A DNA stretch of 31,757 nt from a virus. Shown here one piece after another: positions 3,595 through 7,965 of the stretch. The position numbers and the translations under genes were made by a program. The first letter of the stretch is position 1. Each line of letters opens with the position of its first letter. The notes under the pieces are model-generated. The model did not search any database and had not been told where the DNA came from. It worked only from the letters and a program-made list of their open reading frames with translations. The stretch covers positions 1-31,757 of the IMG/VR virus record IMGVR_UViG_3300028596_000047; one strand, written 5' to 3'.

Positions 3595-3649
3595 TAGAAG
3601 CTCCTTTGCACTAAGGCATGAAAGTTTTTGATTGACCTTATCTACCCAA

Positions 3650-7361: not shown

Positions 7362-7391
7362 GAGTACAGCTAGGATATCCTAGCTGTACTC
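7362..7391 (-). terminator. Perfect 30-base palindrome, probable terminator
   Basis: GAGTACAGCTAGGAT (7362-7376) is followed directly by its exact reverse complement (7377-7391). It lies 16 bases past the minus-strand stop at 7408. The T tract after it on the minus strand is broken (TTTTGATTTTT, about 15 bases on), so it may be a weak terminator or an operator-like palindrome. Confidence 0.55.
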
Positions 7392-7407: not shown

Positions 7408-7848
7408 TTAGCCGAAGAGCTTGGTTGCCAGATCCACGTTGGTCTGACGTTGGTCGTCCAGCCAGATGGCGAGGTCTTCACCCTGGGCGTAGTCGACTGC
7501 GGTGGTACCGACACCGAAGATCCAGTCTTCGCCAACCTGCTGCTTGAGGTGATGTTGAGAGTTGACGGAGACACCGCCGAATTCCCAGGTGCCGTCGACA
7601 GTGGTCAGCTTGTCGTTGGATTCGTATTCACGGCGAGCGATCTGGGCGGTAGCGGCTTCTACCTGACCAGACATGTTGTTGATGAACTCGACGTGGTTTT
7701 TCAGCGATTCTTCGGTGATGCCTTCAGGTACATCGGTCTTGGTGGCATCGTAGGTGACGTGATTGGTAGCCTTGTGATACTTGGCATGCTCTACCAAGTT
7801 CTCTACGCCTTTCTGTTGGGCTTCGGCGTACTCTTTATTCAGGGACAT
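7408..7848 (-). CDS. 146-aa protein with structured leader, unknown function
   Basis: The ATG at 7848 is preceded by GTGAGAAAG, a modest ribosome binding site. The N-terminal half is helical and charged (LNKEYAEAQQKGVENLVEHAKYHKATNHVTY). The C-terminal half is beta-rich with WEFGGVSVNSQHH and DWIFGVGTT segments. No family recognised. It uses mostly preferred codons, unlike the small proteins to its left, which suggests high expression. It has its own transcription unit: a TATATCAC promoter block at 7938-7965, a three-way-junction leader at 7882-7938, and the palindrome at 7362-7391 after it. This makes it a candidate strongly expressed early protein. Confidence 0.8.
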   Translation of the reverse strand: MSLNKEYAEAQQKGVENLVEHAKYHKATNHVTYDATKTDVPEGITEESLKNHVEFINNMSGQVEAATAQIARREYESNDKLTTVDGTWEFGGVSVNSQHHLKQQVGEDWIFGVGTTAVDYAQGEDLAIWLDDQRQTNVDLATKLFG

Positions 7849-7881
7849 AGCTTTCTCACTTCATTCAGGGTTTAAAGTTAA

Positions 7882-7938
7882 AGGACCAAATAAAGGAAGT
7901 GTGCGCACTTCCCCTCAGGCATTTGCCTGCTTGGTCCT
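7882..7938 (-). ncRNA. Three-way-junction RNA leader upstream of the 146-aa gene
   Basis: On the minus strand a closing stem AGGACCAA/TTGGTCCT (7931-7938 with 7882-7889, 8 bp) encloses two adjacent hairpins. One is CAGGC-AAAT-GCCTG (7916-7929). The other is GGAAGTG-CGCA-CACTTCC (7895-7912, 7 bp). Almost no bases are unpaired at the junction. It starts within a few bases of the TATATCAC promoter element, so it would form the very 5' end of the mRNA. It may stabilise the transcript or regulate translation. It does not have tRNA features. It is a predicted structure, not a known RNA family. Confidence 0.55.
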
Positions 7939-7965
7939 CTTAGTGATATAGGTTTGAAAAATTAT
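7938..7965 (-). promoter_or_regulatory. TATATCAC early-type promoter block (copy 1)
   Basis: The core TATATCAC occupies 7943-7950 on the minus strand, preceded by the A/T-rich AATTTTTCAAACC. The 28-base block matches 31683-31710 at 26 positions; the two differences are A/G changes. It begins on the TAA stop of the gene at 7962 and lies about 95 bases upstream of the ATG at 7848. No sigma70 promoter fits as well. Confidence 0.65.

Follow-up and report, generated by a model that had tools for sequence, protein, structure and literature searches.

How might a jumbo phage protect or control one of its earliest messages through the 5′ end of that message itself? The question is raised by a short minus-strand stretch of the window, by which we mean the whole 31,757-base virus record analysed here. 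The window belongs to an EL-like jumbo phage, as judged from the gene behind the stretch, which is 55% identical to EL ORF194, and from an S80 head maturation protease upstream. In nucleus-forming jumbo phages an injected phage polymerase makes the early mRNAs, and to our knowledge almost nothing is known of RNA-level control in this group. The stretch encodes a compact leader RNA that probably protects or controls an early message.

Promoter, fold and transcription unit

A sequence-only reading of this DNA had placed an early-type promoter directly before the leader, and the box does match the published EL-type motifs of the virion RNA polymerase (vRNAP) and is conserved in relatives. Early promoter motifs have been published for EL (WTTTYAAACCTACATTATY), N1M2, OBP and phiKZ (PMC7058600); the window sequence TTTTTCAAACCTATATCAC carries an AT-rich box resembling TATATTAC together with the extended EL motif TTTYAAACCTAYATTA and differs from the EL consensus at one base, C for T. 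In AR9 the AT-rich box is followed by 6 nt and then G+1, and phiKZ and phiR1-37 transcripts likewise start 6 nt downstream (PMC5312081). Relatives of the window show the box, six variable bases and then, in nearly all cases, GA at the predicted +1/+2. With +1 predicted at G7936, the transcript would begin 5′-GACCAAG, which is the first strand of the outer stem. Two further early-promoter-like sites in the window, with predicted +1 at 3643 and 31681 (minus strand), are not followed by strong leader folds. The features of the locus are as follows.

7943–7958, minus strand: early (virion RNA polymerase type) promoter box TTCAAACCTATATCAC, fitting the published EL, N1M2, OBP and phiKZ early motifs (PMC7058600 Table 2) and conserved in homologous leaders
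7936, minus strand: predicted transcription start G+1, 6 nt past the box, by the AAATATATATTAT-(6N)-G+1 rule (PMC5312081)
7931–7936, minus strand: 5′ arm of the outer (closing) stem, GACCAA, from the fold and arm-swap tests
7916–7929, minus strand: hairpin 1, CAGGC-AAAT-GCCTG, five pairs, all with compensatory types across clades
7892–7915, minus strand: hairpin 2, AGGGGAAGTG-CGCA-CACTTCCTTT, then a U-rich stretch, from the fold and alignment; labelled ‘terminator’ in Klebsiella phage Miami
7884–7889, minus strand: 3′ arm of the outer stem, TTGGTC, from the fold and arm-swap tests
7878–7922, minus strand: 14-codon mini-ORF in the leader, MPEGKCAHFLYLVL, with ATG at 7920–7922 and a stop ending at 7878; not conserved
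7849–7883, minus strand: linker with the predicted ribosome-binding region of the phrog_13587 gene, with 85% identity in one clade against 99% for the junction
7408–7848, minus strand: downstream gene, 146 aa, phrog_13587, function not assigned (PHROG match E 2.3e-58; 55% identity to EL ORF194)
7362–7391, minus strand: perfect-palindrome terminator of 30 nt, 3′ of the phrog_13587 gene

The minimum-energy fold of the minus-strand RNA from 7936 to 7884 is a three-way junction of outer stem, hairpin 1 and hairpin 2, at −35.2 kcal/mol (z −4.38; none of 200 dinucleotide shuffles folded as well). The junction of the earlier reading, with its 8-bp closing stem (7931–7938 with 7882–7889) and 5-bp hairpin (7916–7929), is present in this fold; the 7-bp second hairpin that it described stands as a core (7895–7912), but the full pairing spans 10 bp (7892–7915). 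Given +1 at G7936, transcription from this promoter would leave out the closing pairs at 7937 and 7938, and the closing stem of the RNA would be 6–7 bp and begin at the 5′ end. Across 83 early-promoter-like sites in four related genomes and the window, this leader is in all five sources the one with the strongest structure (z −4.6 in RisingSun, −4.45 in EL, −4.4 in phiKp_32, −3.7 in the window and −3.2 in FishSpeaker), and the fold therefore exceeds chance. Strong folding as a general trait of early leaders was considered and rejected, as the others are only mildly enriched in 5′ pairing (0.41 vs 0.33, z about 2.6). A few of them carry simple perfect hairpins at +1. Several other early transcripts, among them those at 61392 in FishSpeaker (OP589283; GAACGTAAGCAACCCTTACGTTC) and at 113992 and 125153 in RisingSun (MF459646), are predicted to open with simple hairpins at or within a few bases of +1.

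In 15 of 16 leaders the sense strand gives a more stable fold than the complementary strand, and G-U pairs are used, so that the selected object is this RNA; a DNA cruciform or an antisense RNA is ruled out on the same grounds. A long rod pairing the 5′ arm of hairpin 1 with the outer 3′ arm was also considered as a general switch and set aside, as it appears in the folds of EL and RisingSun and not in those of most clades.

The succession of promoter, junction, linker with ribosome site, gene and palindromic terminator (7362–7391) makes the phrog_13587 gene a probable single-gene unit; the stop of the upstream gene lies at 7962. In the relative L001 the terminator palindrome is compensated with other letters (GGGTAGAGCTGGGTTACCCAGCTCTACCC). 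The phrog_13587 product has a confident AlphaFold model (mean pLDDT 88.6), for which a fold search of the PDB returned no match and no known RNA-binding fold. The only proteins that the model does match are viral ones that are uncharacterised or unnamed, several belonging to jumbo phages, and it gives no functional clue. Uncharacterised proteins of PhiEaH1 and KTN4, and more weakly of Phabio, are among the fold matches of this product (7408–7848), and profile and sequence searches of phiKZ found no relative. Going by the structural model, phrog_13587 may be more widespread across the jumbo-phage group than its sequence reveals.

Covariation and distribution

The structure of the leader is real, its shape having been kept by compensatory change while its letters changed. 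In a model-guided alignment of ten leaders, eight of them distinct, 94.3% of cells are paired and 8 of 20 pairs have changed on both sides, with three, two and three such changes in helices 1, 2 and 3. The covariation score is 0.429 vs 0.230 for shuffles, none of 500 of which reached the observed value, and 0.08–0.18 for slid controls; the picture holds in a 13-sequence alignment, with somewhat weaker pair-type counts. Compensatory changes, the check that the sequence-only reading had proposed for related leaders, are thus found in every helix. Because the alignment had been fitted to the structure, two tests that need no alignment were run as well. The arms of hairpin 1 pair fully with their own partners (100%) vs 63% with those of other clades, and the outer arms reach −6.0 kcal/mol when matched with their own partners vs −3.7 when swapped (permutation p < 5e-5, in the non-redundant set too). 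The outer stems concerned include GACCAA/UUGGUC in the window, GAGCAA/UUGCUU in L073, GACGCU/AGCGUC in L086, ACAAC/GUUGU in L085 and CGACAUC/GGUGUCG in EL. RNAalifold on the 13-sequence alignment recovered hairpins 1 and 2 and missed the outer stem, a region with gaps in the alignment.

Sequence constraint is strongest within the clade of eight L073-type phages, where identity is 99.2% across the 51-nt junction and 77.9% at the third positions of the gene's codons. In the same clade the protein is 91% identical, the promoter box 92%, the linker 85% and the six bases preceding +1 79%. The limits of the constrained stretch are thus those of the predicted RNA, namely +1 and the last base of the outer stem. 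The motif ACA/ACAC recurs in the loop of hairpin 2.

Upstream of phrog_13587 the leader occurs in about 20 distinct types, which come from jumbo phages of Pseudomonas, Erwinia, Klebsiella and Shewanella and from many IMG/VR contigs, and the gene order protease, variable gene, leader, phrog_13587 is common to EL, RisingSun, FishSpeaker, Klebsiella and Vibrio phages. In IMG/VR, searching by protein and by DNA pattern added about 40 loci, several of which overlap. Since the DNA pattern demanded the promoter box and hairpin 1 but not the gene, it is informative that 26 of its 28 matches precede phrog_13587; the other two end at the edge of the stored sequence. A covariance model, R2, whose only sources were EL-type metagenomic leaders and the window, found a single copy in the genome of Klebsiella phage phiKp_32, upstream of phrog_13587 (E 1.7e-5 in 0.94 Mb), and weaker matches at the same locus in RisingSun (0.044) and FishSpeaker (0.34). 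Its search of phiKZ, OBP, N1M2, Aeromonas and Vibrio phages gave nothing convincing (best E in phiKZ 0.3). The leader is recovered by covariance model in L084, L085 and L090.

The association also has its exceptions. The Vibrio group keeps hairpins 1 and 2, as judged by eye, and has no outer stem; in L082, L084 and L112 that stem is weak or missing; and in N1M2, Yubaba, OBP and Kc263 no such leader accompanies phrog_13587. In L085 a 50-aa ORF (1012–1164; MSEFKKLFVLVDKHG...) lies between the conserved leader and phrog_13587, which indicates that the leader stays with the promoter. In Aeromonas phage CF8 (L018, 612–800) phrog_13587 is preceded by two early-promoter boxes, and behind the first of them lies a three-way-junction-like fold that the model missed and that may be a distant relative of the leader.

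Candidate functions of the leader

The explanation we favour, tentatively and at a little below an even call, is that of a conserved, single-copy, structured 5′-terminal leader of one early mRNA in EL-like nucleus-forming jumbo phages, which would stabilise that mRNA by shielding its 5′ end. The virion RNA polymerase would start at G7936 and the 5′ end of the RNA would immediately enter the outer stem. With its 5′ triphosphate end tied into the closing stem, the transcript would be shielded from 5′-end-dependent decay by RppH and RNase E, both of which are blocked by 5′-terminal base pairing according to references in PMC3997798. The compact single-gene early mRNA would thereby be stabilised, with its ribosome site in the linker outside the junction. 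The position of the outer stem favours 5′-end protection: it begins at the predicted +1 in 6 of 10 clades and between +2 and +5 in the others (+4/+5 in EL and RisingSun), and hence, given the predicted start, lies near the 5′ end as mRNA-stabilising stems do. The strongest objections are the lack of the outer stem in the Vibrio group and a few others, and a near-invariance within a clade that a simple block would not call for. For 5′ protection a plain hairpin would suffice; three helices, nearly identical in sequence among members of a clade, point to a more specific partner.

Such a partner would explain why the junction is nearly invariant within its clade, and the junction could be a dedicated regulatory or trans-acting RNA, made within minutes of infection by the injected polymerase and acting with a specific protein or RNA partner, a proposal that we take seriously but doubt. 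That the junction is a specific regulatory site, bound by a protein of the phage or the host (perhaps the phrog_13587 product itself) that controls decay or translation of this mRNA, strikes us as unlikely. The 99% identity of 51 nt in eight phages, where third codon positions reach 78%, the recurring ACA/ACAC of the hairpin 2 loop and the close tie to a single gene would all suit a binding site; yet N1M2, Yubaba, OBP and Kc263 have the gene but no leader, its modelled product is unlike any known RNA-binding fold in the PDB, and the leader and gene of L085 are separated by the 50-aa ORF. Alternatively, hairpin 2 and the U-rich tail could halt much early transcription as a promoter-proximal attenuator, and a stop after about 45–55 nt could free a short structured RNA, with read-through to phrog_13587; we consider both the halt and the release somewhat unlikely. 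A U-rich tract follows hairpin 2 in nearly all relatives, forming a textbook terminator in Aphrodite1, and the terminator score is positive there and in phiKp_32, FishSpeaker and L072 and near zero in the window. The ‘terminator’ annotation in phage Miami points the same way, as does the 180-nt structured ncRNA from the phiKZ p40 5′ UTR, for which premature termination is suspected (PMC8545117). However, the score is strongly negative in the best-conserved clade (−43 in L073), EL, RisingSun, L100 and others, and the conserved outer 3′ arm lies past the U tract, so that the RNA must usually run beyond it. Termination might also serve the upstream head-protease operon, the hairpin overlapping the next gene's leader by chance. 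While the window has no other terminator from the upstream stop (7962) to the promoter, and the Miami annotation would fit here too, L084 and L085 have a separate strong hairpin before the promoter and still keep the leader, conservation begins at +1 and many relatives score low as terminators, and this origin is very improbable.

Translation of the leader fares worst. The sequence-only reading had drawn attention to a mini-ORF with an AGG, and had raised the prospect of a translated switch. The frame exists and an AGG is close by, three bases before the ATG rather than five as that reading had it, but the AGG and part of the start are paired in the hairpin 1 stem. From an ATG at this place the frame runs for 14 codons in the window, 19 in L072, 5 in L091, 22 in L100 and 16 in L101, most leaders have no ATG there, and a 2-nt deletion breaks the frame in the nearest relative. 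With its frame not conserved and its start signal largely buried, a translated 14-codon switch controlling the gene is scarcely credible, and the mini-ORF is probably an incidental by-product of the sequence CAGGCAAATGCCTG. Masking of the phrog_13587 ribosome site, also proposed earlier, must be discarded: the site lies about 30 nt past the junction in a linker of its own. Inspection by eye for pairing between the hairpin 1 loop and the ribosome site found nothing consistent.

Relation to known RNAs

Rfam scans at the gathering score found no match in the window and eight relatives, in line with the earlier remark that no named phage RNA has this shape, and a tRNA scan found nothing. No description of the leader RNA was found in the literature searched, which mostly excluded subscription papers (including two phiKZ transcriptome papers). 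The packaging RNA of phi29 is a phage RNA with a three-way junction; the leader differs from it in phage, size, sequence and genomic place, and the Rfam scan of the window returned no match. The leader is a distinct RNA family absent from Rfam, with its junction anchored at the predicted start of the injected phage polymerase.

Our results describe a covariation-supported RNA family in nucleus-forming jumbo phages with a predicted start and a single target gene. Pseudomonas phage EL offers a culturable model in which the mRNA protection, attenuation and small-RNA hypotheses are directly testable.

Structured 5′ leaders are already a known kind of element, as is the early vRNAP promoter, and the box upstream of the leader is that of phiKZ, EL, OBP and N1M2 (PMC7058600, PMC5312081). 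The ncRNA of the phiKZ p40 5′ UTR (PMC8545117) is likewise a structured early 5′ UTR RNA of a nucleus-forming jumbo phage, whose second stem-loop is a suspected terminator; unlike the leader, it is 180 nt long, has two stem-loops and belongs to another gene, and the best R2 match in phiKZ has an E of 0.3. Closest in design are the 5′ stem-loops of the ompA and papA type (Emory, Bouvet and Belasco, as cited in PMC3997798), in which the mRNA 5′ end is likewise base-paired with the ribosome site downstream. The leader, for which stabilisation is a prediction, differs from these in being a three-way junction that recurs across phage genera with one phage gene and a vRNAP promoter.
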